Source: a bacterium | Lineage (GTDB): Bacteria; Patescibacteriota; Patescibacteriia; SG8-24 | NCBI GenBank assembly: GCA_023246195.1 | Contig: JAHFIW010000015.1 | Span: 1 to 33,225 of the forward strand | Direction of reading: 5' to 3' | Length of the DNA stretch: 33,225 nt | Shown here: in pieces, positions 51 to 20,358 of the stretch | Layout: every line of letters starts with the position of its first letter | Numbering within the stretch: the stretch's first letter is position 1 | Program-made: the position numbers and the translations under genes | The notes under the pieces: model-generated | Database searches by the model: none | What the model saw: only the letters and a program-made list of their open reading frames with translations | Told to the model about the DNA's origin: nothing

Positions 51-1190
51 ATGGGAATGAAGGAAACAGGCGAATTGCGTGGACGCGACGGGTTGCGAGA
101 AGGGCCGGATGGCCATGATCGCGAGACAGGAGGCATAAATGAGTACGTGAGAGTTCTTTACAAAAGGCAGTCCGATCTCTTTCAGCAGGACGAAGCGCAG
201 CGACGCCGATATTTCGAGCGTCACCCGACGTTCTTTGCCTGCCTGAAGTGCATGGACGGCCGGGTCGAGTTTCCTACCATGACCAAAACCGCGCGCGGCC
301 TCGTAAAGCCGTATCGCGCGGTCGGCGGGAAGTTCGAACTGTTCTGGCCGGCCTTTCAGCGTTCGCTCGCCCTGTGGGTGAAGCAGGCCATCATGCATGA
401 CGCGCATTCCTGCATCTTCGTCAGCAGTCACTTCTGTTCCTTCCGGCGCGACCTCGGTTGCAAGGGATGGGACAACGATGCCGAGGCGGCAATGTGCCAC
501 ATGCAGAAACTCTCGAGCCAGATGACCGAGGATTTCGGCGAGCAGCTGGTGGCCATTCCGACCAGCGTCGACACGTCATGCGACAACCTCATCCTGCACG
601 GGCCGGAAGGGCACGTCGTTTCCGGTGACACCCTTCGCGGCAAGGACATCGACGCGATTCGCGACGAGATCGGACTGGTCTTTCCGACCATGCCGCCGCA
701 GGTCGTCCGGGACCTGACGCCGTTCCTTCTTGGCAACGCCGAACGCGTCGCTGAAATCAAGGCCAACCCGAGAAACGTCCGCGAGATGGAGCACGACGAG
801 AGGGTCATCGCCCTCGGAGAAGGCTTTGACGGATTGGCCGCGGAGAACTTCGCCTTCATGAACAGCGATGTCAACCCGAATCTCGACTCGGCCGTCGTCA
901 TGGCCGCGAAGATGATTGAGCGAAAGGTGGACGTGGGCATGCGCCGCGAACAGGCGACGATCTTCACGAACATCTTCTACGGGGGCAGACGCGGCATCCT
1001 GAGCAGCCTGCCCGGCATGGACAAGAAATGCGCAGTTCGGCGCTCGCGCGGCCTTCAGGAGTTCGCGCAGATGCACATTCGAGAGCATTGCCCCGAGCTT
1101 TGGAGGTCGGGCCGCCTGCATTTCCTGACGGGCATTACCCGCGAACCGACTCGCGAGCTCGAAGTCATCGAGGAAGGAAAAGTCAGCTAG
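51..1190 (+). CDS. CsoSCA-like carbonic anhydrase family protein (probable)
   Basis: A 379-residue soluble protein with no signal peptide. Residues 67-71 read CMDGR, followed by H127 and C137 in a Cys-rich stretch (SSHFCS, then GCKGWDND). A C-x-D-x-R dyad with a later His and Cys is the layout of beta-type carbonic anhydrases, in particular the carboxysome shell type CsoSCA, which would make C67, H127 and C137 zinc ligands and D69/R71 the dyad. There are no carboxysome or RuBisCO genes here, so a carboxysome role is not implied; bicarbonate supply or a different zinc chemistry is possible. The ATG at 51 has AAGGAG at 40-45. The first 30 residues look unconserved, and a second strong Shine-Dalgarno before an out-of-frame ATG at 139 makes the N-terminus uncertain. 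A terminator follows. The family call rests on motif memory, not alignment. Confidence 0.5.
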   Translation: MGMKETGELRGRDGLREGPDGHDRETGGINEYVRVLYKRQSDLFQQDEAQRRRYFERHPTFFACLKCMDGRVEFPTMTKTARGLVKPYRAVGGKFELFWPAFQRSLALWVKQAIMHDAHSCIFVSSHFCSFRRDLGCKGWDNDAEAAMCHMQKLSSQMTEDFGEQLVAIPTSVDTSCDNLILHGPEGHVVSGDTLRGKDIDAIRDEIGLVFPTMPPQVVRDLTPFLLGNAERVAEIKANPRNVREMEHDERVIALGEGFDGLAAENFAFMNSDVNPNLDSAVVMAAKMIERKVDVGMRREQATIFTNIFYGGRRGILSSLPGMDKKCAVRRSRGLQEFAQMHIREHCPELWRSGRLHFLTGITREPTRELEVIEEGKVS

Positions 1191-1307: not shown

Positions 1308-2000
1308 ATGACGAAGAACACGAGTGATCCCGTGACGGCGCTTCGGACGACCTTGGAGCCGCACCTTGCGCGAATCGACGTCTTCAGCGAGACCGGTCAC
1401 GAACGGGTATTCGATACGCTGATCGATGCGGCGCGGAGCATCTCCGACCGTCTCGAAGACAACAAACCGTACCTCTTCGACGACGGCGGCGATACGCGAC
1501 CGTACGGCCAATCCGTCTCTGCGCTGAATGCGCTGTTCAGCGGCTATGGAGAATGGGGCGAGGTGCCCATGTCGTTTGCCAAGCCGTACGAAAAGCCGAA
1601 TTGGATGGATGCTCGCGGCTATGACGAGAGCATCATCAAGAGCTACGACGATACTCTCGCCGTGCTCATCCGTGAACGGCTCAACGGGAAATTCATGGCG
1701 GAATATCCGCGCTACCGTTTCGTCCGCGCGGCGCTCGACATGACGTTCGAACGACGGATCTGCCGGGCATTCGACGGTTCCAGGCTGCTGCCCCATGTCG
1801 TCGCGGAACAGGTCGAGGAGAACGTCCTCGAAACGCTCGCCTACGGCCTGACCCTCGTTCTTGGCAAGTCGCCTCGCGAGAGGTTGATGCAGTCCGAGTC
1901 GCTGGCGAAACTCGCCGAGACGTTCACCTGCGTCATTCCCGTCGGCAAGACGCCGACCAACGTCGCCGTCTATCGCCGCATGCTCGTGCTCGTCGCCTAG
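1308..2000 (+). CDS. Hypothetical protein, 230 residues
   Basis: Not recognised. The start is well supported: AAAGGAG at 1295-1301 and ATG at 1308, with a good promoter upstream and a terminator 15 bases after the stop. The product is soluble, without signal peptide or membrane segment, and looks mostly helical, with a Tyr/Trp/Asp-rich middle (residues about 70-110). No catalytic motif was seen. It is a single-gene transcription unit convergent with the Ehr-like operon, so its context says nothing about function. Confidence 0.75.
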   Translation: MTKNTSDPVTALRTTLEPHLARIDVFSETGHERVFDTLIDAARSISDRLEDNKPYLFDDGGDTRPYGQSVSALNALFSGYGEWGEVPMSFAKPYEKPNWMDARGYDESIIKSYDDTLAVLIRERLNGKFMAEYPRYRFVRAALDMTFERRICRAFDGSRLLPHVVAEQVEENVLETLAYGLTLVLGKSPRERLMQSESLAKLAETFTCVIPVGKTPTNVAVYRRMLVLVA

Positions 2001-2055: not shown

Positions 2056-3609
2056 TTACATGTCCGTGCCGCTGTAGGACAGGTCCAGGCTTTTGTTGCA
2101 TAGCGGGAAGTCGGGAACGATGTTGCCAGGTCCGATTTCGCCGAACAGCGCCCAGTTGCAGAAGGACGGATCGCGCGGCATGCAGCGATCGATGCGTCCG
2201 CTCTTGATGCGCAGCGCGCACAGGATCTCACCGCGCCAGGATTCGACTGCTCCCAGGGCGATGCCGTCCTTTGCGTGGCATTCGGCACGGATCGGCCCGG
2301 CGGGCATGGTCGCAGTCAATTCGGCGATCAGCCGTGAGGAATCCTCGAGTTCGCGCACGCGCGCGATGAAGCGGGCGTAGACGTCACCGGACCGTTCCTC
2401 TACCAGGGTCGGTCGGAATGCGGCGTAGGCGGCGTAAGGGTGCGTGAGGCGTACGTCGCGGCCGATGCCGGAGGCGCGGGCAGGAAGGCCCTTCGCGCCG
2501 AGGGCGAGCGCGCCTTCCCTGGAAAGCACGCCGGTCGTCTCGAGGCGTTCGCGTTCACCGTCGGAAGAGAGGCACATGGCGAGGAATGACCGCATCTCCG
2601 CGTCGGCCTCCTTGATGACGAGCGCAATTTCCCTTAACGCCTCATCTTTCAGGTCAGCCGCCAGACCTCCCGGCACGATGGCTCCGCGCCAAAAGCGGTT
2701 GCCGAAGAGCTTGGCCGAAAGGCGCACCAGGCGTTCCTTGATGCGGAAGCCGTTGGCCGCCATCACGGTGTAGCCGGTGCCATTGCCGGCGATATTGGCC
2801 AGGTCATGCATGTGCATGCTGACACGTTCAAGTTCGCACAGCAGGCTGCGGGAAGCTTCGGCACGTTCGGGTACGCGACATCCGGCGATGGACTCGACCG
2901 CCTGGCAAAACGCAAGCGCGTTCGAGACGGACATGTCGCCGGACAAACGCTCGATGAACGGCAGGGCTTCGGTCGGCGTCTTGCCCTCGAGCAGCTTCTC
3001 GACGCCCTTGTGCGTGAAGAACAGCTTGCCTTCGAGGGTGATGATGCGCTCCCCTGCCACGTTGAATCGGAAATGGCCGGGCTCGATGACGCCGGCATGA
3101 ATGGGGCCGACGGGAATTTCGTAGACGCCTTCTCCTTCCACATGGTGCATGGGATACGGCACGTCGGCGTGAGCGAGCTTGGTATTCCAAGCGAAGTCCT
3201 TACGCAAAGGATGCGTGCCTTCCGGTACGTTTTCATGATGCACAAGCCGTCGCGGATCCGGATGGCCTTCGGCGACGATGCCGAACATGTCCATGGCGTA
3301 GCGTTCGTACCAGTGGGCAGCGACGACCTTGGCCGTCACTGAGGGATAACGCGGAGCGTCCTCGGGCAGCTTTGCGGAGAGCATCAGCCATCCGTGCGCC
3401 TCATCGAGCGCGAACGCGACGTGGACGCCGAAACTGCCGTCGGTCTCGCGGTCATCAGTGGCGTAGAGGAGGGACAGCGGCAGGCCATTTTCGGAGAGCA
3501 GCGCGCAGGCATCCGCCAACTTTTCCGGCGCGATTGCCGCCAGCGTCAAGCCGTTCCTGGTTTCGCCGACCTGACCTCCTGCCAGGTCGATGTAGTCGTG
3601 GGTGGTCAT
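2056..3609 (-). CDS. Ehr-type catalytic-subunit homologue (HyfG/HycE-like), NiFe ligands lost
   Basis: A 517-residue fusion of a NuoC-like domain (about 1-140) and a NuoD/NiFe large-subunit domain (about 155-517), the same architecture as HycE and HyfG. Landmarks: the NuoC segment HWYERYAMDMFG, IHAGVIEPGHFRF near 170, and VPERA at 246-250. In active group 4 NiFe hydrogenases the metal is held by ERICGIC and DPCxSC. Here these read ERLSGDM (S223, M226) and DLSYSGTDM (S511, G514), so all four ligands are gone although the surrounding alignment is good. The protein also ends at TDM, where HycE has a tail that is removed during maturation. It cannot bind a NiFe centre in the known way. This is the hallmark of energy-converting-hydrogenase-related (Ehr) complexes, whose function is unknown. 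Last gene of the operon, 3 bases after the HyfF-like gene. Confidence 0.88.
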   Translation of the reverse strand: MTTHDYIDLAGGQVGETRNGLTLAAIAPEKLADACALLSENGLPLSLLYATDDRETDGSFGVHVAFALDEAHGWLMLSAKLPEDAPRYPSVTAKVVAAHWYERYAMDMFGIVAEGHPDPRRLVHHENVPEGTHPLRKDFAWNTKLAHADVPYPMHHVEGEGVYEIPVGPIHAGVIEPGHFRFNVAGERIITLEGKLFFTHKGVEKLLEGKTPTEALPFIERLSGDMSVSNALAFCQAVESIAGCRVPERAEASRSLLCELERVSMHMHDLANIAGNGTGYTVMAANGFRIKERLVRLSAKLFGNRFWRGAIVPGGLAADLKDEALREIALVIKEADAEMRSFLAMCLSSDGERERLETTGVLSREGALALGAKGLPARASGIGRDVRLTHPYAAYAAFRPTLVEERSGDVYARFIARVRELEDSSRLIAELTATMPAGPIRAECHAKDGIALGAVESWRGEILCALRIKSGRIDRCMPRDPSFCNWALFGEIGPGNIVPDFPLCNKSLDLSYSGTDM

Positions 3610-3612
3610 AGG

Positions 3613-5085
3613 CTACCGGGTAAGGTTTCGGGACAGCGTCATGAAGAAGTCGCGGCCGGGGGCGTTCAGCAGTGCGAATCCGAGCGCGAAACACAGGATG
3701 ATGCCGATGAGCATGGCGACGTTCGCCAGGTTCCAACGTTCGCTGCCGGTAGCATGCGTCCGCGGTTCGGCCGTCTCTGACGAGAAAAGCATCTCGATCG
3801 CCGATCGCATCATGCCAAAGCCGATCATTACCAGCAGCGCTAGAATGATGACCGTGAGCAGCGGCTGGCGTGTCAGGCCGTACGACGTCATGATGTACTC
3901 GCTCATGAACAGGGCTGAAGGCGGTGCCGCGAGCAGTGCCAACAGGCCGATGAAGAACAGTACGCCGGTCTTCGGCCGACGTTCGACGACGCCTCGCACG
4001 TCGGCAATGCGCGTAGACCCGTACTCGTGCAGCATTTCGCCTGCGCCGACGAAGAGCGCCGGTTTGGCCAAGGCGTGTCCTGCCATGTGCATCATCGCCG
4101 CGAAGGTGCCCAACGGTCCGAGGCCGACCGCAAAAGCCATCAGTCCCATGTGTTCCACGGAAGAATAAGCCAGCATGCGCTTGTAGTTTTTCTGTACCAG
4201 CATGATGAACGACGGCAGCGCTACCGAAAGCGTGCCGAAAGTCAGGAAGAACGTATCGGTCCAGCCGGATGATCCCGAGGCGGCATCGACGATCAGCTTG
4301 GCGCGAAGCAGCACCGCAAAGGCGACGTTGAGGAGGATGCCGGAAAGCATCGCGGAAATCGGCGAAGGAGTCTTGCTGTGCGCGTCCGGAAGCCAGGTGT
4401 GCATCGGCACGAAGCCCACCTTGGTACCGACGCCGATGAACAGGAAGACGAATGCCCAACGCAGCGTGTCGAGCGACAGCGAGCCGGCGTATGCCGACAG
4501 CGACGACAGGGTGAGCGCGCCGGCACCAAGGTTCGCGCCGACGGCCGAATGGATGAGCATGAGCACGCCGAGCAGTCCGAGGGTGATGCCCGTGGAACAG
4601 ATGACGATGTATTTCCACGCGGCCTCCACTGCGCCGCGAGAACGGTCAAAAGCTACCAGCAGGGTGGTGGTCAGCGTCGTGGATTCGAGGGCGATCCAGA
4701 GCAGCGCCAAGTTGTCGGCGGCGACCGCCGTCCACATGGACAGTACGAACAGCATGAAGAACAGGATGAACGTCTTTTCGTTGGCCGGAGTGATAGTCCC
4801 CTTTTTTTGGCCGTGCGCCAGATAGTGGGTTGCGGCCAACGAGGCGAGCGCGGCGACGATCGCCACGAGACTGATCATGTAGGAGGCGAAGCGGTCGACC
4901 CGAACCGGTCCCCAGGCGGATGGCGTGCCGGAGAGCAATACGGGAACGGCGACGAACGCGGCGGCGGTGCACGAAAGCAGCGCGCCAAACAGGAAGTTGC
5001 GGCGGCGGGCGGCGCTGCTGATCGGCAGGAACGCCGCGGCGGCGGAAGCGAGGGCGAGGAAGAAAGGAAACAGTGGATGCGACAT
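3613..5085 (-). CDS. Antiporter-like membrane subunit (HyfF/NuoN-like)
   Basis: A 490-residue protein with about 13-14 hydrophobic helices, of the proton-conducting transporter (Mrp/NuoL/M/N) family. The two residues that define the channel are present: E134 in LLWIALESTT (helix 5) and K222 in GVGTKVGFVPMHTWLPDAH (helix 7). H229 in the same loop is also conserved. Where HyfB has a Lys in the next broken helix, this protein has Asn (SGILLN), which is usual for HyfF-type subunits. Expected to carry H+ or Na+ through the membrane arm. It starts 1 base downstream of the HyfE-like stop codon, so translation is probably coupled. Confidence 0.88.
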   Translation of the reverse strand: MSHPLFPFFLALASAAAAFLPISSAARRRNFLFGALLSCTAAAFVAVPVLLSGTPSAWGPVRVDRFASYMISLVAIVAALASLAATHYLAHGQKKGTITPANEKTFILFFMLFVLSMWTAVAADNLALLWIALESTTLTTTLLVAFDRSRGAVEAAWKYIVICSTGITLGLLGVLMLIHSAVGANLGAGALTLSSLSAYAGSLSLDTLRWAFVFLFIGVGTKVGFVPMHTWLPDAHSKTPSPISAMLSGILLNVAFAVLLRAKLIVDAASGSSGWTDTFFLTFGTLSVALPSFIMLVQKNYKRMLAYSSVEHMGLMAFAVGLGPLGTFAAMMHMAGHALAKPALFVGAGEMLHEYGSTRIADVRGVVERRPKTGVLFFIGLLALLAAPPSALFMSEYIMTSYGLTRQPLLTVIILALLVMIGFGMMRSAIEMLFSSETAEPRTHATGSERWNLANVAMLIGIILCFALGFALLNAPGRDFFMTLSRNLTR

Positions 5086-5086
5086 A

Positions 5087-5737
5087 TCAATCCGTAAGTT
5101 CGTTCAGGGCCTGCGTGTTTTCCGTGCCGTACAGCTCGCGGACGCGGCCGCTGACCGTGCCCATCAGCACGATGCCGAACGTCAGCGTCATGAGGATTCC
5201 CAGCTCGACCAAGAAGGGCAGGTCGCGGATGACGGCGAAGGAGAACGCGGCAATGCCGTTTTCCATCACCAGGAAGCCCATCACCTGCGAGAGCAGGTCG
5301 CGGCGCAGCACCATCATGGCCAAACCGATCATGACCATGGCGACGGCGACAAGCAGGAGGTATTCCGGATCCGCTCCGGCGGCGAAGGGAGAACGCAGCG
5401 CCATTGCCGTGACCACCGTGATGAGTACGGTGATGACGATGTAGGTGGGCGCCGGACGGAGCGTGGATGAAAGACGCATGGACATGCCTGCGCGATCAGC
5501 CGCGCGGGTGATGACTGCGGGGATGATGAGCGCCTTGAGGGCGATGGCGGTCGCCGCGAGCAGGTAGAGTTCCGGCGCATTGCGTTCGAAGGCCAGTCCT
5601 GCGACGAAGAGTCCGAGAAAGAGGGCCGAGGCCGCATAGGATCGCACGAGCGTGTGAAAACGCAGCGCCCCTGCCGCACGGATGGATGTTGCCAGCGTAG
5701 CGCCGGCCAGAATGGCGTTGATGAGCGTGATGTGCAT
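5087..5737 (-). CDS. HyfE-like membrane subunit (NuoK-related)
   Basis: A 216-residue protein with six or seven hydrophobic segments. The C-terminal part carries QVMGFLVMENGI with E159, matching the membrane glutamate of NuoK (E36 helix), and K68 sits in a helix (ALKALIIP). HyfE proteins supply the NuoK-like ion path linking the NuoH-like subunit to the antiporter subunits. Length matches E. coli HyfE (about 216). It lies between the HyfC-like and HyfF-like genes, as in hyf operons. No frame or length anomaly. Confidence 0.85.
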   Translation of the reverse strand: MHITLINAILAGATLATSIRAAGALRFHTLVRSYAASALFLGLFVAGLAFERNAPELYLLAATAIALKALIIPAVITRAADRAGMSMRLSSTLRPAPTYIVITVLITVVTAMALRSPFAAGADPEYLLLVAVAMVMIGLAMMVLRRDLLSQVMGFLVMENGIAAFSFAVIRDLPFLVELGILMTLTFGIVLMGTVSGRVRELYGTENTQALNELTD

Positions 5738-5743
5738 AAGGGT

Positions 5744-6676
5744 TCAGGCGAGCGCGAGTATCAGGCCGGCGAGAGCCGTCAGGAAGGCGATGGTCATGTA
5801 TTCCTGCATGCGATAAAACCGCATTTTTGCCATCGATGATTCCAGAAGCGCAAGCAGCCCCATCGCGGCGCAGAGCTTGAATACCGTGCTGGCGATGATC
5901 ATGAGCATTGCCGAAACTCCCGAATCGACTGTCATGAGCGGCATGGGAATGATGATGTTGGCGAACAGTATCGCGAACAGCGTGAGTTTGAGTGACGAGG
6001 CATACTCGAGCATGGCCAGATACGGACCGGAGTATTCCAGCACCATCGCCTCGTGCACCATGGTAAGTTCAAGATGCGTTGCCGGATTATCGACGGGATA
6101 CCGCGCGTTTTCGGACAGTGCCACGAAAACGAAAGCGATCAGGCTAAGCAGCAGGCCAGGATGCCGCAACAGTCCCATGCCGGTCACGGAAAGCATTTTG
6201 GCGACAGTGCCGCTGCCACTGGTCACGGCGAAAGCCGCGAAGACGGCGATGATCGACGGTTCCACCAGCGCGACCAGCGTCATTTCGCGGCTGGCACCCA
6301 TGCCACCGAAGGCGCTGCCCGGATCGAGTCCTCCGAGCACCAGGAATACCGCGCCGAGCGCGAGCAGTCCGGCGACTACGATAAAGTCGCCGCTCGCCGA
6401 AAGCGCTCCGTCAACGGAGGTCAACGGGAGAAGCAGCGCCACGAGCGCGGTGCTCGCCAGTACCGCGTACGGAGCCAGGCGAAACACCCACGAGACCGTT
6501 GGCGAAATGACCATTTCTTTCCTGAGGAGCGTGGCGTAAGTGACATACGGAAGAAGCGGCGACGCGCCGTGCCTGCCCTGCAATCGAGCCTTGCACCAGC
6601 GGACAAGTCCGGTAGCGAACGGGGCTAGAGCCAGGATGACCGCTCCCTGGATGACGGTGAGGAGGATGGGCGTCAT
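5744..6676 (-). CDS. NuoH-like membrane subunit (HyfC/HycD-like)
   Basis: A 310-residue protein with about eight membrane helices, related to NuoH. It keeps the charged loop and helix residues of the family: E131 in FGGMGASREM, E139 in ALVEP, E189 in SENARYPVDNP, and E203, E209 and E214 in HLELTMVHEAMVLEYSG. These line the funnel that links the peripheral arm to ion transfer. I chose the ATG at 6676 because it overlaps the upstream stop as ATGA; an in-frame ATG at 6688 would add four residues (MHRH). The loops that contact the redox subunits look intact even though those subunits have lost their cofactors. Confidence 0.87.
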   Translation of the reverse strand: MTPILLTVIQGAVILALAPFATGLVRWCKARLQGRHGASPLLPYVTYATLLRKEMVISPTVSWVFRLAPYAVLASTALVALLLPLTSVDGALSASGDFIVVAGLLALGAVFLVLGGLDPGSAFGGMGASREMTLVALVEPSIIAVFAAFAVTSGSGTVAKMLSVTGMGLLRHPGLLLSLIAFVFVALSENARYPVDNPATHLELTMVHEAMVLEYSGPYLAMLEYASSLKLTLFAILFANIIIPMPLMTVDSGVSAMLMIIASTVFKLCAAMGLLALLESSMAKMRFYRMQEYMTIAFLTALAGLILALA

Positions 6677-8670
6677 ATGGCGATGCACAGCGTTGCGGCA
6701 AGCGCGACGAGGATGAACAGGAGATAGAGCTGGATCGACCCGCTTTGGACGCGGCGGGCCCAGTTGCCCAAACCGTGAAACCCGCGCGAGATCGGTTCGT
6801 GCACGTGCGATTCCCAGAATGAGCGGCCGGTGAGCAGCATTTCGCGCTTCAGCAAAAAGGAATTTCCCTTAGTCGTAGGAATGGTCACGACGGTCTTGCG
6901 GACGCCGACGAGGTTACGGAAAAAGAAACGGATGGGCGCGCTGAAGGCCGTAGCCGTGTATTCCATGTGCGCGTTGATCGGCTGTCCGCAGTTCCACGTT
7001 TGGTAGACGCGTTCCTTGGACGGCCGCGAGAGGAACCGTTTGGCAATGAGGCTGAGAAGCAGCGTGCCAAAGACGGCCAGAGCGAGGACCAGCGGCGAGA
7101 GGGACGTTCCCCTGCCAGTGACGATGGTTTCGGAAGACATCGTGCCGTTCATGATGAGGCTTCCCAGTCCGAGTACGCCGAGGATTTGCGAGGCGAACGC
7201 TCCGGTGAGCGCAGCCAACGCGGCGAGGACGATGACCGGCAGCCGAATCGCGTCGTTCGGCTCATGGGCGGCTTCCGCTGCGGCCGAGCGTGACGCGCCC
7301 AACTGCGAAATGGAGAACAGCTTGACCATGGCAAAGACCGCGATGCCGGCAGTAAAGGCGGTGCCGACGAGGGCGAGTACGAGAACTGCCTGCGTCGCCG
7401 GCGCGATGCCGTGCAACGATGCCACGAGCCCGGAAAGATACATCCATTCGCCGATGAAGCCGGCAAATGGCGGCAGTGCGGCTCCTGCGAGCGCCAAAAC
7501 GAGGAATGCGCCGGAGAAGGTCGGCATGCGCTTTGCGAGGCCTCCCATGCGCTCAAGGCTGCGCGTATGCACGGCGTGCGCGATGGCGCCAGCGCTCAAG
7601 AACAGGCCGGACTTGAAGATGGCGTGCGCGATGCAGTGAAATAGCGCTGCGGCAAAGGCCACGGCAGCGAGAGCATGGAGTCCTTGTCCTCGCGCATACA
7701 GGCTGGTGCCAAGCATGAGGAAAATCAATCCGAGGTTTTCCACGCTGCTCCAGGCCAAGGTGCGCTTGATGTCAGTATCAACGGCGGCATGAAGCGCGCC
7801 GAAGACCGCGGAAATCAGGCCAATGCCCATGACCGTAAGCGCTGCGGCGGCAGGAAGCGACGGGATGATGAGAAAAGCGCACAGGATGAAACCGTAGACG
7901 GCCACCTTGAGCATGACGCCGGACATGAGCGCACTCACGTGGCTCGGCGCCTGCGGATGCGCTTCGGGCAACCAGGTGTGGAGCGGCACGAGACCGGCCT
8001 TGGACCCGAAGCCGACGAAGAAGAATGCGAACGCGAGTGTCGCCTCGCGCAGGGGCATGGTGCGGGCATTGGCGGCCAGGGCGGCGAAGTCAGCCAGCGG
8101 GTTGCCGGCGGCAAGCAGCAGGAATCCTGCCATGAGCGAGAGCGCGCCAAGGTGCGCCATGACGAAGTAGAGCATGGCTGCCTTGCGCGAGGCCGTGCTG
8201 CGGTCCGCCATTACCAGCGTAAAAGACGATAGGGACATGATTTCCCATGACACCATGAATCCCAGTGCCGAGGTTGCCAGAAGCGTGGCCTGCATGCCGA
8301 AGATGAACAGCGCGGTGACGCCATGCAGGCTCGGTACATCGTAGGCGTCGCGATTCTCGTCGACATAACGCATGGCATAGATGGCCGCGATGCAGGCCAC
8401 CAGGTTCACCACGACGAAGAACGGCGCCGCCAGGGGGGTCAGTCGGAAGGTGACGCCAAAGGAGGCGATGACTGGAAGCAGCGGGACAGCCCCCGTCTTC
8501 AGCGTCATGGAGGCCATGGCGGAAAGTGCCCCGATCCCCGTACCTATGACGAGGAAACCGTTGGAGAGGCGCCTCAAAAGGCCCTTTCGAAGGAGGAAGG
8601 CCAAGGGAAAAGCGATGAACGTGGCGACAAGACAGGCGGTCAGCCCCGCCTGGATCAAGGAAAGTTGCAT
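6673..8670 (-). CDS. Antiporter-like membrane subunit (HyfB/NuoL-like)
   Basis: A 665-residue protein with about 15-16 membrane helices, second Mrp/NuoL-type subunit of the complex. Channel residues are present: E143 in VSWEIMSLSS, K224 in GSKAGLVPLHTWLPEAH, H231 and K255 in SGVMLK. The C-terminal part has the HyfB signature TWNCGQP followed by YTATAFSAPIRFFF and a final helix. With the HyfF-like gene this gives two antiporter modules, as in hydrogenase-4. Stop and next start overlap by 4 bases. It starts 3 bases after the small-subunit stop. Confidence 0.88.
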   Translation of the reverse strand: MQLSLIQAGLTACLVATFIAFPLAFLLRKGLLRRLSNGFLVIGTGIGALSAMASMTLKTGAVPLLPVIASFGVTFRLTPLAAPFFVVVNLVACIAAIYAMRYVDENRDAYDVPSLHGVTALFIFGMQATLLATSALGFMVSWEIMSLSSFTLVMADRSTASRKAAMLYFVMAHLGALSLMAGFLLLAAGNPLADFAALAANARTMPLREATLAFAFFFVGFGSKAGLVPLHTWLPEAHPQAPSHVSALMSGVMLKVAVYGFILCAFLIIPSLPAAAALTVMGIGLISAVFGALHAAVDTDIKRTLAWSSVENLGLIFLMLGTSLYARGQGLHALAAVAFAAALFHCIAHAIFKSGLFLSAGAIAHAVHTRSLERMGGLAKRMPTFSGAFLVLALAGAALPPFAGFIGEWMYLSGLVASLHGIAPATQAVLVLALVGTAFTAGIAVFAMVKLFSISQLGASRSAAAEAAHEPNDAIRLPVIVLAALAALTGAFASQILGVLGLGSLIMNGTMSSETIVTGRGTSLSPLVLALAVFGTLLLSLIAKRFLSRPSKERVYQTWNCGQPINAHMEYTATAFSAPIRFFFRNLVGVRKTVVTIPTTKGNSFLLKREMLLTGRSFWESHVHEPISRGFHGLGNWARRVQSGSIQLYLLFILVALAATLCIAI

Positions 8671-8673
8671 ACG

Positions 8674-9222
8674 TCAGAATCGTTTGGAGCCGGCTGCCTC
8701 GCGTATGGCGTGAAGGACGCCACGAAGAATGTCGGTCGGAGATGGGGGGTCTCCTGGAATCTTTATGTGGACCGGAATGACTGATTCGACCGGTCCGACG
8801 ACGGCGTAGGAATCCTTCCAGATGCCGCCGGTACAGGCGCCGTCTCCTACCGCCACGACGATGCACGGATGCGGCGCGGCCTCGTAGGTGGTTTTGACCG
8901 CGCGTTCCAAGTTGCGCGTCACCGGTCCGGTGACGAAGAGCATGTCGGCATGCCGAGGAGAGGCCACGAACGACAGGCCAAAGCGATCGATGTCGTAGTA
9001 GGCGTTGCCAATGGCGGTCAGTTCGATTTCTTCGGCATTGGTGGAGCCTCCGTCGACGGCACGTATGCGCAATGAGCGCCCTCCGTAGAGTTTCTTGACC
9101 GTCTCGCCGAGCTCCTTGCCCACGTTTTCAAATTCGGCGTCTCTCGCGGAGAGGAAGGCGCTGGCCGGTTCAGTGACTCTCGGACCAAAAAAAAGTTCCC
9201 CCCACAGCTTCGTCAGGTACAT
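8674..9222 (-). CDS. Small-subunit homologue (HyfI/HycG/NuoB-like), Fe-S ligands lost
   Basis: A 182-residue protein that aligns by eye with HycG, HyfI and NuoB over residues 50-170. In this family four cysteines bind the proximal [4Fe-4S] cluster (N2 in complex I). Here the canonical GSCNGCxIE reads GSTNAEEIE (T61 and E64 for the two Cys), the GDC position reads GDG (G128), and GCPP reads GDPP (D158). All four are lost while the flanking residues remain. C130, two residues after the third position, and C120 are the only nearby cysteines and cannot replace the set. The fold is probably kept as a scaffold joining the large subunit to the membrane arm. First gene of the operon. Confidence 0.87.
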   Translation of the reverse strand: MYLTKLWGELFFGPRVTEPASAFLSARDAEFENVGKELGETVKKLYGGRSLRIRAVDGGSTNAEEIELTAIGNAYYDIDRFGLSFVASPRHADMLFVTGPVTRNLERAVKTTYEAAPHPCIVVAVGDGACTGGIWKDSYAVVGPVESVIPVHIKIPGDPPSPTDILRGVLHAIREAAGSKRF

Positions 9223-9345: not shown

Positions 9346-9783
9346 CTAGCCTGACGGCAGGTGCCGGTTTTTGCCGAAGTGCTTGCGGGCCACGCGGGCG
9401 CGCGCCAATTCGCGTTCCAGCGCGGCTATGGCGCTTGCGGCGGAAACATCGTCGTTGCTGCGTTTTTCGGCCAGGACTTTCTCGGCACGTTCGCGGGCGG
9501 CCTCGACCTTTTCGAGATCGAGTTCTTCTGCGCGCTCGGCAGTGTCGGCCAAGATGATGATCTTGGAGCCGGGTTGCACCTCGACGAACCCGCCGGAGAC
9601 GGCCAGGTAGGATTCCTCCCTGCCCTTGCGGAGGGTGATCATGCCGGGAACCAAGTTAGCCACCAGCGGCAGGTGTCCGGGCAATACCGTAATCTCCCCT
9701 TCCTGGGTAGGAACGGTCGCGGCATCGTATTCTTCCTTGAGGACGATGCGCTCGGGAGTGGTGAGTTCGAAGTGGAGTGACAT
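9346..9783 (-). CDS. atpC: ATP synthase epsilon subunit
   Basis: A 145-residue F1 epsilon subunit. The N-terminal beta-sandwich is clear (FELTTPERIVLKEEYDAATVPT, GEITVLPGHLPLV), followed by a charged C-terminal helical hairpin from about residue 90. It belongs to the central stalk and can inhibit ATP hydrolysis. It follows atpD by 1 base and is the last gene of the operon. Length is typical (about 130-145). Confidence 0.96.
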   Translation of the reverse strand: MSLHFELTTPERIVLKEEYDAATVPTQEGEITVLPGHLPLVANLVPGMITLRKGREESYLAVSGGFVEVQPGSKIIILADTAERAEELDLEKVEAARERAEKVLAEKRSNDDVSAASAIAALERELARARVARKHFGKNRHLPSG

Positions 9784-9784
9784 A

Positions 9785-12087
<2,303 letters not shown>

Positions 12088-12099
12088 ACCCCTAAGTCA

Positions 12100-13605
12100 T
12101 CAACCGTTAATCTTCTTGTACTCGGCAACCGCCTCTTCGATTCGCATCTTAGTGTCATCCGACAAGTCCGTCTCTTTTTCGATGGTATCGACGATGTCGC
12201 GGCGGGTCTTGCCGAGGTAGTCGCGGAAGCCGGCTTCGAAGGCGCTGATCTTCTCTACGGCGACGTCGTCAAGCTTTCCGGCGATGAGCGCGTAAAGGAT
12301 GGTGGTCTGCGAAGCGAGCGACAACGGCGCATACTGGCCCTGCTTGAGCAGTTCGGCAGCACGGCGGCCGCGCTCGATCTGCTTGCGAGTGGTCTCGTCG
12401 AGGTCGGAGGCGAACTGGGCGAAGGCCTCGAGTTCGCGGAACTGGGCCATTTCGAGACGCAGCTTGCCTGCCACGCGCTTCATGGCCTTGGTCTGCGCGG
12501 ACGAACCGACGCGCGACACCGAGATGCCGACGTTGACTGCCGGGCGGACGCCCTTGTTGAAGAGGTCGCCTTCAAGGAAAATCTGGCCGTCGGTAATGGA
12601 AATGACGTTGGTGGGAATGTAGGCGGAGACGTCACCGGACTGCGTCTCGATGATTGGCAGCGAGGTGATGGAGCCTCCCCCGTTCTCCTTGTTGAGACGG
12701 GCGGAGCGTTCAAGCAAACGGGAGTGCAGGTAAAAGACGTCGCCGGGGTAGGCTTCGCGACCCGGCGGGCGGCGAAGCAGCAACGAGACTTCGCGGTAGG
12801 CCCAAGCGTGCTTGGAAAGGTCGTCGTACACGACGAGCACGTCCTCGCCCTTGGCCATGAAGTACTCGGCAATGGCCGTGCCGGAGTACGGAGCCAAGTA
12901 AGTCATCGAGGCGGGATCAGAAGCGCCCGCCATGACGATGACGGTGTGCTCCATTGCGCCAGCAGCTTCGAGACGGCCGAGAATCTGAGCGATCTTGGAC
13001 TCCTTTTGACCGATGGCCACGTAAACGCACTTCACGCCCTTGCCTTTCTGGTTGATGATGGTGTCGATGGCGATGGTGGTCTTGCCGGTCTGGCGGTCGC
13101 CGATGATGAGCTCGCGCTGGCCCTTGCCGATCGGGATCATCGAATCGATGGCCTTGATGCCGGTCATCAGCGGCTGATTGACGCCCTGGCGGGTAATGAC
13201 GCCAGGTGCGACCCTGTCGACCGGCATCACGGTCTTGTCACCGCCGATTTCGCCCTTGCCGTCGAGCGCCTCGCCAAGCGGGCTGACGACGCGTCCGATG
13301 ATCTTTTCTGAAACCGGAATCGAAAGCACTCGGCCGGTGGACTTCACCTGGTCGCCTGCCTTGATGTGCGTGTAATCGCCGAGCAGCATCGCGCCGACGG
13401 ATTGCTCTTCGAGGTTGAGGATTACGCCAACGGTGCCGCCGGGAAATTCAAGCATTTCCGCGGTCAATGCGTCGGTCAGTCCGGACATGCGGGCGATGCC
13501 GTCGGCAATCTCCACGATGGTACCGGTCTTGTCGGCCGCGGCGCCGGTGCCGAGGTGCTGGATTTCTTGTTTCAGCGCTTCGATGATGGATGATTTTGAG
13601 GCCAT
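12100..13605 (-). CDS. atpA: ATP synthase alpha subunit
   Basis: A 501-residue non-catalytic nucleotide-binding subunit of F1. Walker A is GDRQTGKT at 169-176, and the arginine-finger region [15 protein letters not shown] is present. Length is normal. It follows atpH by 10 bases. The minus-strand bases before its ATG read TTTCCTCCTGATC, the opposite of a Shine-Dalgarno, so initiation must rely on coupling to atpH or another route. Confidence 0.98.
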
Positions 13606-13615
13606 AAGGATATGA

Positions 13616-14023
13616 TCAGGAGGAAACGGTGCGAGTCAGGACGTTCTTCAGGTCGTCGAGCGTGTGGCGAACGGTGGCATCGATGACGCGGTCCTCGGTG
13701 CGGATACGGATGCCGCCGACCAGGTCGGGCACCACCTTGCGAACCACTTCGCGGCCCTTGGAGGAGATGCCTGCCGCGGCCAGCGCTTCGGCTTCACGCG
13801 CGTCGTCAATCGGCGAGGCCGTCTCTACCGTGATGCGCGTGCGGCTGTCGATGTCCTCCATGACTTCGGGCAGCGAGGCTAGCGCGTCATGCAGCATCGA
13901 CTCGAGTCCGTGCCGCCCGATGACGGCCACGAAGTTGGCTATCAGCGGCTTCAGCTCGTCTGCCGTGGCATTTTTGGTTGCCAGGTAGAGGGCGCGTGCA
14001 AGTTCTTTAGGGGAAGTTTTCAT
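13616..14023 (-). CDS. atpH: ATP synthase delta subunit (short)
   Basis: A 135-residue delta (OSCP-like) subunit by position and by its C-terminal half ([30 protein letters not shown]), which matches the conserved end of the family. The usual length is about 175-180 residues, so the N-terminal helical domain that binds alpha is shortened. Short delta subunits occur in reduced bacteria. The frame is intact. It joins F1 to the b-subunit stalk. Confidence 0.9.
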
Positions 14024-14047
14024 ACGACTAAGTTGATTTCCACCGCC

Positions 14048-14593
14048 TTATGCGGCTCCTTCCGCGCTCGCGACGTCCTTAATGGCCTTGGCAATGAGTC
14101 CGGCGTCGATGCTGGCGTCAATCTTGCCCTTGAGCACCTTTTCTGCGGCCATGGCCACTAACGTGCCGACCTCGGCTTTTGCTTCGGCCATCATCTTGTC
14201 TTTTTCCGCGCGAATCTGTTCGCGGCCCTGGTCAACGACTTTTTGCACCTCAGCTCTGGTGCGAGCGGCCGCTTCGACCCGCTCCTTCTCTGCCAGGATG
14301 GTGGCAGCATCCATGATCTCTTTGGCGCTCTTGCGAGCCTCGGTCACGATGTTGGCACGATCAGCCTCGGCCAACGTGCGGGATTGCGACGAGGCCAGCG
14401 CGTCCTTGATCCCCTGTTCTATCTTGGCTGCGCGATCGTCCATGATCTTGAGCAGCGGCTTGTAGGCGAACTTCCAGAGCACCAGCAAGATCAGGCCGAA
14501 GTTGACCAGCTGCGCGACGAACAGTTTCCAGTTGATGCCGAGCGTGCCGAGCACGTCGGTCGATGCGGCGACTTGTTGAACTTCGGTGACCAT
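14048..14593 (-). CDS. atpF: ATP synthase b subunit
   Basis: A 181-residue peripheral stalk subunit. One membrane helix at about 22-44 (WKLFVAQLVNFGLILLVLWK) is followed by a long charged coiled coil (about 50-165) rich in Ala, Glu, Lys and Arg. It has about 20 residues before the membrane helix, somewhat more than E. coli b. It lies 25 bases before atpH and 103 bases after atpE. No Shine-Dalgarno is visible. Confidence 0.95.
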   Translation of the reverse strand: MVTEVQQVAASTDVLGTLGINWKLFVAQLVNFGLILLVLWKFAYKPLLKIMDDRAAKIEQGIKDALASSQSRTLAEADRANIVTEARKSAKEIMDAATILAEKERVEAAARTRAEVQKVVDQGREQIRAEKDKMMAEAKAEVGTLVAMAAEKVLKGKIDASIDAGLIAKAIKDVASAEGAA

Positions 14594-14645
14594 AGCGGGA
14601 GATGCAAAGGGTGAAATGCGAAGCGTGGAGATCGGAGAGGAAAGC

Positions 14646-14672
14646 TGGAGCGCAGTTGTCGACGACGCTCCA
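14646..14672 (-). other. Hairpin in the atpE-atpF gap
   Basis: TGGAGCG (14646-14652) and CGCTCCA (14666-14672) form a 7-bp stem with a 13-base loop in the 103-base gap after atpE. No T run follows, so it is not a plain terminator. A stem here could protect the 3' end of an atpE-containing fragment or lower atpF expression relative to the c subunit. Confidence 0.45.
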
Positions 14673-14696
14673 ACCTTCTTACTCCGAACTTCACTC

Positions 14697-14915
14697 TTAC
14701 AGGGTGAAGACGACGACGAGCGAGTAAATGGCGATGGCTTCAGCGAAGGCGGCGCCGAGCAGCATCGGAACGAACAGCTTGCCGGTCGATTCCGGATTGC
14801 GGCCGATCGACTCCATGGCCTTAGCGACGATTTGACCGATGGCCAAGGCCGGGGTCATGCCGCCGATCGCCATGGTGAGACCTTTGGTAAGGATCTTGAT
14901 TGCTTCCGGGCTCAT
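14697..14915 (-). CDS. atpE: ATP synthase c subunit
   Basis: A 72-residue hairpin of two membrane helices that forms the rotor ring. The ion-binding carboxylate is E59 in AAFAEAIAIYSLV, and the polar loop is ESIGRNPE (35-42). The sodium-type set (a Gln in helix 1 and Glu-Ser/Thr in helix 2) is not present: helix 2 reads AEAIA, and the Gln at 28 is one turn off the sodium position. Proton coupling is predicted. The helix 1 glycine repeat is partly replaced (MTPALAIG). Gaps of 139 and 103 bases with hairpins flank this gene, unlike the rest of the operon. Confidence 0.95.
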   Translation of the reverse strand: MSPEAIKILTKGLTMAIGGMTPALAIGQIVAKAMESIGRNPESTGKLFVPMLLGAAFAEAIAIYSLVVVFTL

Positions 14916-15026
14916 ACGAATGGTGAAGCGTTCAGGTCGACTGGAGGGGAGTTTAAAGTCGCCTACTTCGGCTTCGGTTAAGGGTGAGGTTCGAAGTCCG
15001 CCGCATGAAAACGGAGCGGGCGTCGA

Positions 15027-15043
15027 ACCGTTGCCTCAACGGT
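15027..15043 (-). other. Hairpin between atpB and atpE
   Basis: ACCGTTG (15027-15033) and CAACGGT (15037-15043) form a perfect 7-bp stem with a 3-base loop in the 139-base gap before atpE. It starts 11 bases past the atpB stop. Without a T run it is more likely an RNA stability or processing element than a terminator. Confidence 0.5.
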
Positions 15044-15054
15044 CATCCTGCGGG

Positions 15055-15954
15055 CTATATGCCCGGCAGGGCTTCGTTCAGGTCCGGCTTTCCTTGGGCG
15101 ATGCCGTGCGCTTCGCCGAGTACGTCTTCCTCATGCTTGTGCTCGTCACCATGCGGCGCGTCGGTCGCAAGGACCAAGTACACCAGCGTGAGCATCGAGA
15201 ACACCAGGGCCTGGACCACGCCTACGATGATCTCCAGGAACATGAACGGCGTCGGCAGCAGGAAAGCCATCAGGGAAGACAAGACGTGAATCAGCACTTC
15301 GCCGGCAAAGATGTTGCCGAACAGGCGGAGCGCGAGCGAGACCATCTTGGCAGCTTCCGACATGAGCTCGATCAGGCCGACCATCAATCCGATGACGGCC
15401 GTGAATACCCCGACGGCGTACTCGCCGACGGGTTGCGTGCCGATTTTGGAAACGGCCTTCCAGAAAGTGCCCAGTTGGATGAACTTATTCCAATATTTGA
15501 AGAAGCCGACGGTCATCACGCCGATGACATGCGAGGCGATGACTACCGCGATGCTCATGGCAAAAGTCATGTTGAGGTCGCTGGTGGCGGGGCGAAACAG
15601 CGGAATCAGTTCCTTCCCTTCCCCCGTCATGCCCCACAGGCCGATGGTGCCTACGCCGGGCAACAGACCGAACCAGTTGGAAAGCAAGATGAACGGAAAC
15701 AGCGCCCCGACGATCGGCAGGAAACGGCGCGAACGCGCGCGTTCGTGCGTGACCTGATCCATGAAGGAGAGCATGCCTTCAAGAACGTATTCCGCGACGT
15801 TCTGTACCCCCTTCGGTACCTCGGCGACGGTGCGAGAAATGACGGCACTCAACATCACCAGTACCGCAACGACTACCCAGCCGGTGAGCAGGGAATTGGT
15901 GACGGGCAGGGCCCCGAGGGAAAACAGTTTTTCTGCGGCAACCGGAATCGACAT
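15055..15954 (-). CDS. atpB: ATP synthase a subunit
   Basis: A 299-residue membrane subunit that forms the ion half-channels. The essential arginine is R210 in LALRLFGNIFAGE. About six hydrophobic segments are present. The start MSIPVAAEKL at 15954 lies 4 bases after the atpI stop; longer in-frame readings run into atpI and are unlikely. The C-terminus carries an approximately 35-residue His/Glu/Asp-rich tail after the last helix (APHGDEHKHEED onward), longer than in E. coli. Confidence 0.95.
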   Translation of the reverse strand: MSIPVAAEKLFSLGALPVTNSLLTGWVVVAVLVMLSAVISRTVAEVPKGVQNVAEYVLEGMLSFMDQVTHERARSRRFLPIVGALFPFILLSNWFGLLPGVGTIGLWGMTGEGKELIPLFRPATSDLNMTFAMSIAVVIASHVIGVMTVGFFKYWNKFIQLGTFWKAVSKIGTQPVGEYAVGVFTAVIGLMVGLIELMSEAAKMVSLALRLFGNIFAGEVLIHVLSSLMAFLLPTPFMFLEIIVGVVQALVFSMLTLVYLVLATDAPHGDEHKHEEDVLGEAHGIAQGKPDLNEALPGI

Positions 15955-15958
15955 ACTG

Positions 15959-16255
15959 CTAACGATTCGCTTCCTTATGAGCCTCTTCTTCCTCGCCGAG
16001 CGCCTCGTACTCGCGACCGAAGTCGCGCGATCTCTTGTTGATGAAGGTCGCGGTGATGATCGCGGCAATGACGAATCCCGCGATGCGCAAGTAGGGCGCG
16101 GTGCCGTACATGTCGTCCAGCTTCTTTCCCGTCATTGCCAGAACCACTACCGGAATGGCAATGGAAGCGCCGAATTCCCCCATGATCCTAAAAGCAAGAA
16201 GAACGTAACGGCGGTCAGTGCTGCTGCGAGAAGTGGGTTTTTGAACCGAATCCAT
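15959..16255 (-). CDS. AtpI/AtpZ-like F0 assembly protein
   Basis: A 98-residue protein with two membrane helices (about 28-42 and 56-73), a basic start and an acidic tail (GEEEEAHKEANR), placed first in the ATP synthase operon. Small two-helix proteins at this position (AtpI, AtpZ, gene 1) help c-ring assembly or cation transport. The start MDSVQKP at 16255 is chosen because a longer reading would begin at a TTG upstream of the operon promoter. No Shine-Dalgarno is seen. Confidence 0.75.
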   Translation of the reverse strand: MDSVQKPTSRSSTDRRYVLLAFRIMGEFGASIAIPVVVLAMTGKKLDDMYGTAPYLRIAGFVIAAIITATFINKRSRDFGREYEALGEEEEAHKEANR

Positions 16256-18433: not shown

Positions 18434-20350
18434 TCAGTTCTTCCCGACCTGCGAGCTTTGCGAGCGCAGCTGCTCTGCGAGTCCGGCGACGGTAGACACC
18501 AGTGACTCCACGTTCCTGAAGTGCACCTCTGAATCGGTAACATGGTAGGCAGCCAACCGCTGAGTGAACTGTCGGCGAGTGGCTTCGTTCTCGTTCTTGG
18601 CGAGGAGCATGTGCATCAGATAGTTGGCAATTTGGTCAACCAACGCCTCATCCTTGGAAGCTGATGCCGTGCCACCGAGAGCGGCTTCGATGACGCGGCT
18701 CATGACGCGCTTGACGCCCTCGTCGACATGCTGCCTGTCGATGAACGCCACCAATTGGTCGTTTTCATCGATGCGTATGTTGCGGGCATCGAGTTCGGGA
18801 TGGCGGTCGATGAGCTTCTGCTCGTCGGGTGAGCGGCGCAAGTTCGTGAGACGCCGCTCCGAAGCCTCGCCTACCCTGCCGAGTTCGATTTCGGCGAGCA
18901 CGAGCTGGGCGGCTCGCGAGGCGGCTCGGTTGTCAGGACTGATGGTCTTTTCCAGCTTGCCGACATAATCGTCCAACGCGGCGATATCAAGCTGCGCGAT
19001 GTCGTTACGCAGCTTCTTGTATTCGACTTGCGCCGCCGCAGCTTCGTTGGCTTCGCGGGCGGAATCGGGCGCTACCTCGTCATCCGCCGACGTGTCATCG
19101 CTGAAGAGCGCCTCGTCGGGAACTTCCATGTATTCGTCGTTGCCGTGCTCCGCTGCGGGGACGATCGCCGGCGCGGGTGCAGGCGCGGCCGGCGTTTCGG
19201 GCAGGTGCGTTTCGATAGCCGCGAGCATCTCAGGTTTTTTGGCGAAATGTTCGAGCAGGACGGCCCGCACGATGCGATTTGACTCCTCCCTGGTCATGTC
19301 GCTGCCGAAGCTCACTTTGAAGGTGCTCCGTGCGAAGTCGGTGACATAGGAAAGGTATTTTTCGATTTGCTCAGGCAGCTTGAAGAGCGGCTCGAACTTC
19401 TCGGCCAGCATCGTCGCCGACGCTTTCAACGTTTCGTGCGCCTGTGCGGGCGTCATGGTGCGAGCGTCCATGATGTTGACGGGCTTGGCCGGTTTGGATT
19501 CGGCCTCGGGCTCGTTGACCTGCGCGTCCGCCTCGTCAGGATGTTCGGCAGCCAGTTTTTCGCTGATAATGGTCTCGCGCTTACGCTGCATCAGCGGTCC
19601 ATACCAGGCTTTGTATTCTTCGGTGTCGTAATAATCGCGTTTGGTGCGGACCATCTCGATGATGAAGGGGGGCACGTCGAGAATGCGTTCCTGCTGCGGT
19701 TGGCCCTCCTCCAGTTCATACTTCCATTTGGGATAGAGCTTGTCGGTGTCACGCGGACGATCGAAGAACACCTTCACGCCCTTGCGGTCCAGGGCTCGGC
19801 GCAGGTCGTCGCAGCGCTGCTCGACGGCTTTGGACGCGTTCTCGTCGCTGCCGATTTTCGCAGCGAGTTTTTTTGTGAGGGTGATGGACGTCTCGATTTC
19901 ACCTTCACGATAGCCGCCGGCACGGTCGTCGCGCACGCGGAAGTCTTCCTTCATTCGCAAGCTGCCGTCGTCGTCGTGGACGAGACGGTAGCCTTCGAAG
20001 ATGCGCTTGGGGCGATTGCCTCGCGCTTCGCGGGATTCACGAGTCTCCGGCTGCAAAGGTGCCGGTGAAGTCGCCGATTCGATTTTGTCCGTTGCAGGCG
20101 TCGCTTCCCTCTCCTTTTCCTCCTCTTCGGCGCTCGCTTCGGGCACGGGATAGCCTTTTTCTTTGGCCCACGAGATTAACGACTTTTGTGCCGTCTCCGA
20201 GAGGGACGTAAAAGCGTCGCTGGCCCAGATGTCAGCGAGATCCATCTCTTGTCCCATCATCTGTTGCGCCTCGATGGCACCTTCGATCAGCTCACGAACA
20301 ATTGAGCCGTCCTGCCGCTTGGCAGTTTCGGCCGAGGAAAGATGTTCCAT
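18434..20350 (-). CDS. Large hypothetical acidic protein, 638 residues
   Basis: Not recognised. A soluble protein without signal peptide or membrane helix, rich in Glu, Asp, Ala and Arg. Ala/Pro/Glu-rich linkers (about residues 70-110 and 400-455, with runs such as EEEEKERE and PAPAPAPA) separate likely helical blocks: about 1-65, 115-290, 300-395 and 455-638. No catalytic motif was found. The ATG at 20350 is preferred over an upstream in-frame TTG. A TATATT box ends only 8 bases before this ATG and there is no Shine-Dalgarno, so the mRNA may be leaderless. It is divergent from another unknown large gene and has its own terminator. A multi-domain scaffold is possible but unsupported. Confidence 0.75.
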   Translation of the reverse strand: MEHLSSAETAKRQDGSIVRELIEGAIEAQQMMGQEMDLADIWASDAFTSLSETAQKSLISWAKEKGYPVPEASAEEEEKEREATPATDKIESATSPAPLQPETRESREARGNRPKRIFEGYRLVHDDDGSLRMKEDFRVRDDRAGGYREGEIETSITLTKKLAAKIGSDENASKAVEQRCDDLRRALDRKGVKVFFDRPRDTDKLYPKWKYELEEGQPQQERILDVPPFIIEMVRTKRDYYDTEEYKAWYGPLMQRKRETIISEKLAAEHPDEADAQVNEPEAESKPAKPVNIMDARTMTPAQAHETLKASATMLAEKFEPLFKLPEQIEKYLSYVTDFARSTFKVSFGSDMTREESNRIVRAVLLEHFAKKPEMLAAIETHLPETPAAPAPAPAIVPAAEHGNDEYMEVPDEALFSDDTSADDEVAPDSAREANEAAAAQVEYKKLRNDIAQLDIAALDDYVGKLEKTISPDNRAASRAAQLVLAEIELGRVGEASERRLTNLRRSPDEQKLIDRHPELDARNIRIDENDQLVAFIDRQHVDEGVKRVMSRVIEAALGGTASASKDEALVDQIANYLMHMLLAKNENEATRRQFTQRLAAYHVTDSEVHFRNVESLVSTVAGLAEQLRSQSSQVGKN

Positions 20351-20358
20351 ATACAAAA

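Follow-up and report, generated by a model that had tools for sequence, protein, structure and literature searches.

Gene content of the locus

The window, i.e., the whole stretch of 33,225 nucleotides that was analysed, belongs to a Patescibacteria (CPR) genome of 1.17 Mb that is 98% complete and whose relatives carry the labels Uhrbacteria, Moranbacteria, Falkowbacteria, Peregrinibacteria and Patescibacteria. Six tightly packed genes on the minus strand code for a complex of the Ehr type, in the order S-B-C-E-F-L with S as the first gene. Ehr are energy-converting or Ech hydrogenase-related complexes (Coppi 2005, Marreiros 2013). The genes of an F-type ATP synthase lie directly upstream, and S starts 123 nt past the end of that operon. 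The features are as follows.

8674..9222, minus strand: small subunit S, 182 aa, a member of the EhrS/HyfI/NuoB family in which the proximal-cluster cysteines are missing (Pfam, alignments, AF2 model)
6673..8670, minus strand: membrane subunit B, 665 aa, an antiporter subunit of the HyfB/NuoL type with conserved channel residues Glu/Lys/His/Lys/Glu
5744..6688, minus strand: membrane subunit C (HyfC/NuoH-like)
5087..5737, minus strand: membrane subunit E (HyfE/NuoK-like)
3613..5085, minus strand: membrane subunit F (HyfF/NuoM-N-like antiporter subunit)
2056..3609, minus strand: large subunit L (NuoC+NuoD fusion, HyfG/EhrL-like, 30 kDa and 49 kDa domains), 517 aa, in which the NiFe ligands and the quinone Tyr are missing
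9346..16068, minus strand: F-type ATP synthase genes atpB-E-F-H-A-G-D-C
14697-14915, minus strand: ATP synthase c-subunit, without a Na+ motif as judged by eye
51..1190, plus strand: X1, a CsoSCA-like protein of the beta-carbonic-anhydrase family (CMDGR...H...C) that commonly lies next to the ATP synthase operon of CPR

The S ORF runs from 9222 to 8674 on the minus strand, and the plus-strand frame is interrupted by stops. A site resembling a promoter is present at 9293-9265. An Rfam search returned no match, and two long ORFs of the window, 1308-2000 (plus strand) and 18434-20356 (minus strand), had no match in Pfam. In Moranbacteria-type loci (L041, L042, L044-L048 and others), C and E apparently form one fused frame of about 1.6-1.7 kb.

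Loss of the cofactor ligands and conservation of the complex

S matches Pfam Oxidored_q6 with an E value of 2.5e-24. The initial annotation had placed the loss of all four cysteines of the proximal [4Fe-4S] cluster at T61, E64, G128 and D158, and alignment with HyfI, HycG and NuoB of E. coli and one conventional Ehr small subunit proved this exact. These residues stand in place of the ligand cysteines of GG-C-NA-C-EIE, GAC/GDC and GCPP, and the extra cysteine of HyfI and HycG (position 58) is a glycine in S. The codons, assigned by alignment (the coordinate of the first was computed from the ORF start), are the following.

9040..9042, minus strand: T61, former cluster ligand 1
9031..9033, minus strand: E64, former cluster ligand 2
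8839..8841, minus strand: G128, former cluster ligand 3
8749..8751, minus strand: D158, former cluster ligand 4

C130 was considered as a shifted ligand and rejected, as this position is variable (C 42, I 19, V 1 and F 1 in 63 rows). The AF2 model of S, with a pLDDT of 91.9 overall and at least 93 across all three former ligand loops, has HycG of formate hydrogenlyase (FHL; 7z0t_G) as its best PDB match and aligns with the membrane-bound hydrogenase chain 6cfw_J at 2.2 Å over 137 columns. The model indicates that the ancestral fold of S is retained.

The companion claim, that the large subunit has lost its ligands as well, was borne out by the alignment, in which S223 and M226 occupy the first CxxC of L, and S511 and G514 the second.

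2932..2949, minus strand: RLSGDM, residues 221-226 of L, counterpart of RVCGIC in HyfG (alignment)
2059..2085, minus strand: DLSYSGTDM, C terminus of L, counterpart of DPCYSCTDR in HyfG (alignment)

The quinone-binding Tyr of NuoD (DRIEYLGG) aligns with G224. Judged by these alignments, both the NiFe site and the known site for quinone are absent from L. A small-subunit match on contig C25 of the same genome was rejected as a cysteine-bearing twin; it is part of a separate, group 3b-like [NiFe] hydrogenase (locus L008, 1-1604) whose CxxC motifs, RICGTC and DPCMSC, are intact.

Matches were obtained in 26 of the 381 genomes of the class, and 24 of these carry the Cys-less complex, a count that leaves out G315 and G332 with their ordinary, cysteine-bearing NuoB. 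The Nuo-type matches of G039, G315 and G332 were likewise rejected as relatives, being true NuoB with cysteines. The CPR genome G039 has both complexes, a Nuo-type one with a cysteine-bearing NuoB and a Cys-less one of the Ehr type (contig C44, L012). Further loci came from a large-subunit scan of GTDB genomes, which added 44 loci, and from a wider Patescibacteria sample. None of the 63 aligned Cys-less S rows, which include some genomes twice, keeps the ligand set (TEGD in 37, SEGD in 7, TCDD in 5, other variants in the rest), and the set is likewise gone from eight more complete S sequences of the wider Patescibacteria (L082-L089). By their family labels, the Cys-less complexes span about 21 families, and across this broad clade the four substitutions in S occur jointly with the loss in L.

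The dN/dS ratio of S was 0.036-0.159 with a median of 0.075 (8 pairs with dS below 1), and that of L was 0.04-0.11; rows with long spurious high-GC reading frames were excluded from these estimates. S is under purifying selection. The absence of the full set from all 63 aligned and 8 further S sequences, together with the low dN/dS, rules out chance, errors of sequencing and local decay. The chance that a decaying pseudo-complex or a sequencing artefact underlies the loss is therefore negligible, given also the open frames in dozens of genomes and the conserved motifs and gene order.

The Cys-less complex was also found in Acidobacteria-labelled MAGs, in two of which (4.8 and 3.8 Mb) the GC content of its contigs matches that of the rest of the genome; these copies are likely to stem from lateral transfer. 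Three such MAGs bear the complex (L059, L063 and L060; 3.2-4.8 Mb), and S was seen, and is Cys-less, in L059 and L063.

Relation to known complexes and possible electron routes

The sources of the conventional Ehr were a Nitrospirae MAG (L077), plasmids, and genomes belonging to the phylum of an Acidobacteria MAG. The six-gene order S-B-C-E-F-L recurs in conventional Ehr of Acidobacteria and of a Rhodococcus plasmid (L146-L153, and L140 for the plasmid). The C terminus of conventional large subunits reads ...LSYSGNDL or is a near variant of it, and these subunits are also devoid of the NiFe cysteines. In contrast, the four cluster cysteines were intact (CCCC) in every conventional small subunit examined, whereas no Cys-less row has the full set. 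The Cys-less complex goes beyond Ehr in this respect, as ordinary Ehr retain the small-subunit cysteines.

Trees were computed from concatenated S, B, C, F and L, in one case without the four ligand columns. The Cys-less complexes fall within the Ehr clade with an SH-aLRT support of 100, and the main Cys-less clade is united at 100. Its joining with two smaller lineages (the G039 type and L095) has a support of only 44; the tree is consistent with a single origin of the cysteine loss, which we do not claim. L095 (9659-17014) is a long-branch Cys-less copy with D-A-D-N at the ligand positions and the order B-C-E-F-L-S found in other conventional Ehr, and an early or independent loss is possible in its case.

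According to Jaffe et al. 2020 (PMC7304191), the CPR Ehr are monophyletic on a large-subunit tree, lack the metal-binding cysteines and are likely unable to interact with H2; in what the main text describes, these are almost certainly the complexes studied here. The main text makes no mention of the small-subunit cluster of Ehr, of ATP synthase or of antiporter subunits. As to whether cluster loss had been described in Ehr, a question raised by the initial annotation, the cysteine loss of the large subunit thus had been (PMC7304191), and that of the small subunit was not found in that main text. Since the main text covers the large-subunit tree only, the loss of the small-subunit cluster, its breadth and the selection on it, the linkage to ATP synthase and the conserved ion channels appear to be new. 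A study of Margulisbacteria described Ehr as presumed redox-coupled (PMC6349859).

The membrane subunits B, C, E and F and the fused large subunit have homologues in hydrogenase-4 and formate hydrogenlyase (Hyf, Hyc), but the NiFe site, the proximal cluster, the ferredoxin subunits HyfA/HyfH and HyfD are missing. Similarly, both the NiFe-binding CxxC pair and the ferredoxin-like subunit of group 4 [NiFe] hydrogenases are missing. With complex I the L, M/N, H, K, B and CD cores are shared, but not the NADH module, the Fe-S chain, the quinone Tyr or the N2 cysteines of NuoB.

No ORF for a ferredoxin-like subunit of the HyfH/HycF type was found between or beside the six genes. Of 24 host genomes, 19 had no above-threshold match to Fer4_7, the sole Fer4 family scanned, and the one match in this genome lies in a cluster resembling 2-oxoacid:ferredoxin oxidoreductase, identified by eye. 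Only 3 of 27 hosts had a UbiA match above the cut-off, this genome having no match, and the scarcity of UbiA argues against the use of a quinone.

As far as sequences can tell, no electron-carrying site of known kind is left in the complex, and we infer that it is redox inactive. The initial annotation had gone further, holding that the peripheral arm cannot carry electrons by any known route. That no known site is left agrees with our data; the absence of redox chemistry itself is probable rather than established, given the Asp and Cys residues of one sub-clade. There, T/D-C-D-D at the ligand positions might in principle bind metal, which is the main residual doubt.

It is rather unlikely that the complex is still redox active through an unrecognised cofactor, either a mononuclear metal or unusual cluster held by acidic residues or Cys64, or a flavin or Fe-S partner docking on L. 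Such a cofactor would fit the acidic or amide residue at position 158 in all 63 rows (D 58, N 4, E 1), the invariant D127 of the 63 aligned Cys-less S rows and the D/T-C-D-D at all four places in the one sub-clade. A [NiFe] hydrogenase in general tolerated Asp in place of single cluster ligands (PMC4070099), for which reason D158 alone proves little. However, the main clade has T and G at two of the four positions, and T61 and G128 cannot act as cluster ligands. Residues 61, 64 and 128 vary among sub-clades as would those of a filled-in pocket, and Ehr that have the cysteines already possess D127 (GDC). Moreover, no redox gene accompanies the operon, and Fer4_7 ferredoxins and UbiA are missing in most hosts.

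Ion path, linkage to ATP synthase and proposed function

The channel residues of the membrane arm are conserved: each of E/K/H/K/E of B occurs in 60-63 of 64 rows, each of E/K/H/E of F in 43-45 of 45 and each of E/D/E of C in 42-43 of 43, i.e., conservation is at least 93%. Channel residues include the Lys of FGSKAG in B and the Glu of MVLEYSG in C. A H+-PPase was found in 23 of 27 hosts; all four sequences read (4/4) were of the GNTTKA type, which we take to be the K+-independent H+ type. In 35 fetched loci, S follows AtpC on the same strand, with a 4-bp gap in three of them, and two divergent groups of Cys-less complexes show this linkage. The Cys-less copies of Acidobacteria lie apart from atp genes, as do some of those in CPR. 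In the stretches fetched around conventional Ehr no atp gene was present, a further difference from the Cys-less clade.

Because the electron sites were lost and yet the complex is kept by selection, it probably moves ions without redox chemistry. The conserved channels, the H+-PPase of the hosts and the atp linkage lead us to favour, at about an even chance, a redox-free, gradient-driven ion/H+ transporter that is Mrp-like in action, a substrate and an activity that we infer. Isolated antiporter modules of complex I pass protons without redox (PMC11496545), and Mrp is a redox-free cousin (PMC9568556). As in Mrp, the antiporter-like subunits would work without redox, and their channel Glu and Lys are kept; Mrp, however, has neither S nor L, and its gene set is unlike that of the complex. 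The initial annotation had considered a redox-free relative of complex I to be a new kind of complex, which holds for the hydrophilic arm retained without redox but not for a redox-free membrane arm, already known from Mrp.

In the transporter model, the S-L hydrophilic arm, with its ancestral fold, would serve as a structural or gating cap. B, F and C/E would exchange protons for another cation, or else act as a gated proton conductor, driven by the gradient from H+-PPase and ATP synthase. The net effect would be that of an Mrp-like cation/H+ antiporter made from the body of complex I. Three points count against this model: the Mrp gene set (mrpA-G) is absent from the operon, to our knowledge transport activity is not known for any Ehr, and the strong conservation of S and L among relatives suggests that the hydrophilic arm has a specific role, perhaps ligand binding, that would be superfluous in a bare antiporter.

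The atp linkage in two divergent Cys-less groups, together with the passive H+ conduction by isolated modules (PMC11496545), could also point to a gated proton leak, a regulator or an assembly partner of ATP synthase instead of an exchanger. We regard this as unlikely, as the Acidobacterial and some CPR copies lie away from atp genes and a pure leak would have no need of six conserved subunits.

We tentatively consider, with somewhat less than even confidence, that the complex is a complete complex I-type machine including its hydrophilic arm, in which a non-redox event, be it binding or turnover of a ligand in the cavity or gating, would drive electron-free ion translocation in conjunction with ATP synthase. 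If so, the energy-converting branch of the superfamily would have in it a first member that needs no electrons. The host cells have no respiratory chain, and for them the complex is a candidate ion-gradient device. The clade offers a natural test of whether ion transport in the superfamily depends on electron transfer, and hints that ordinary Ehr may likewise act mainly as ion transporters.

In many loci, a gene for X1 or X2 is located between atpC and S or past L. X1 (about 340-400 aa; invariant C-x-D-G-R, H and C) matches carboxysome carbonic anhydrase profiles, with E values of 3e-11 for a PDB profile and down to 6.5e-9 for Pfam CsoSCA_cat. X2 (about 210 aa) has the motif CSDGDQ...HxPCGxA; it resembles carbonic anhydrases by eye only, and a structure-profile search gave no PDB support. 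DAB and NDH-1MS are carbon pumps, and on their model ion flow might be coupled to a ligand or reaction of a non-redox kind in the former active-site cavity, such as CO2/bicarbonate handled with the carbonic-anhydrase-like neighbour. Consistent with this, X1 or X2 is enriched in complex-bearing genomes (14/24 versus 49/357 others; Fisher p 1.6e-6), often in the same gene row. Nevertheless, both are missing from 10 of the 24, most CPR are not autotrophs, and the Pfam scan of ORFs of the window gave no match to DabA, the partner in the DAB pump, the neighbour here being CsoSCA-like. CPR genomes without the complex can also have X1 directly after atpC, which weakened a DAB-like CO2 pump as the first choice; we regard coupling of this kind as quite unlikely. 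The position of X1 in those genomes also indicates that the link between X1 and the complex runs via the ATP synthase operon: X1 is probably a carbonic-anhydrase-like gene that belongs with the ATP synthase operon of CPR and is tied to the complex indirectly. X1 was seen after AtpC in L170, L171, L172, L174, L175, L181, L183 and L184, and X1 and X2 are adjacent in L172 (6394-8454), L173 (6714-8438) and L175 (5863-7562).
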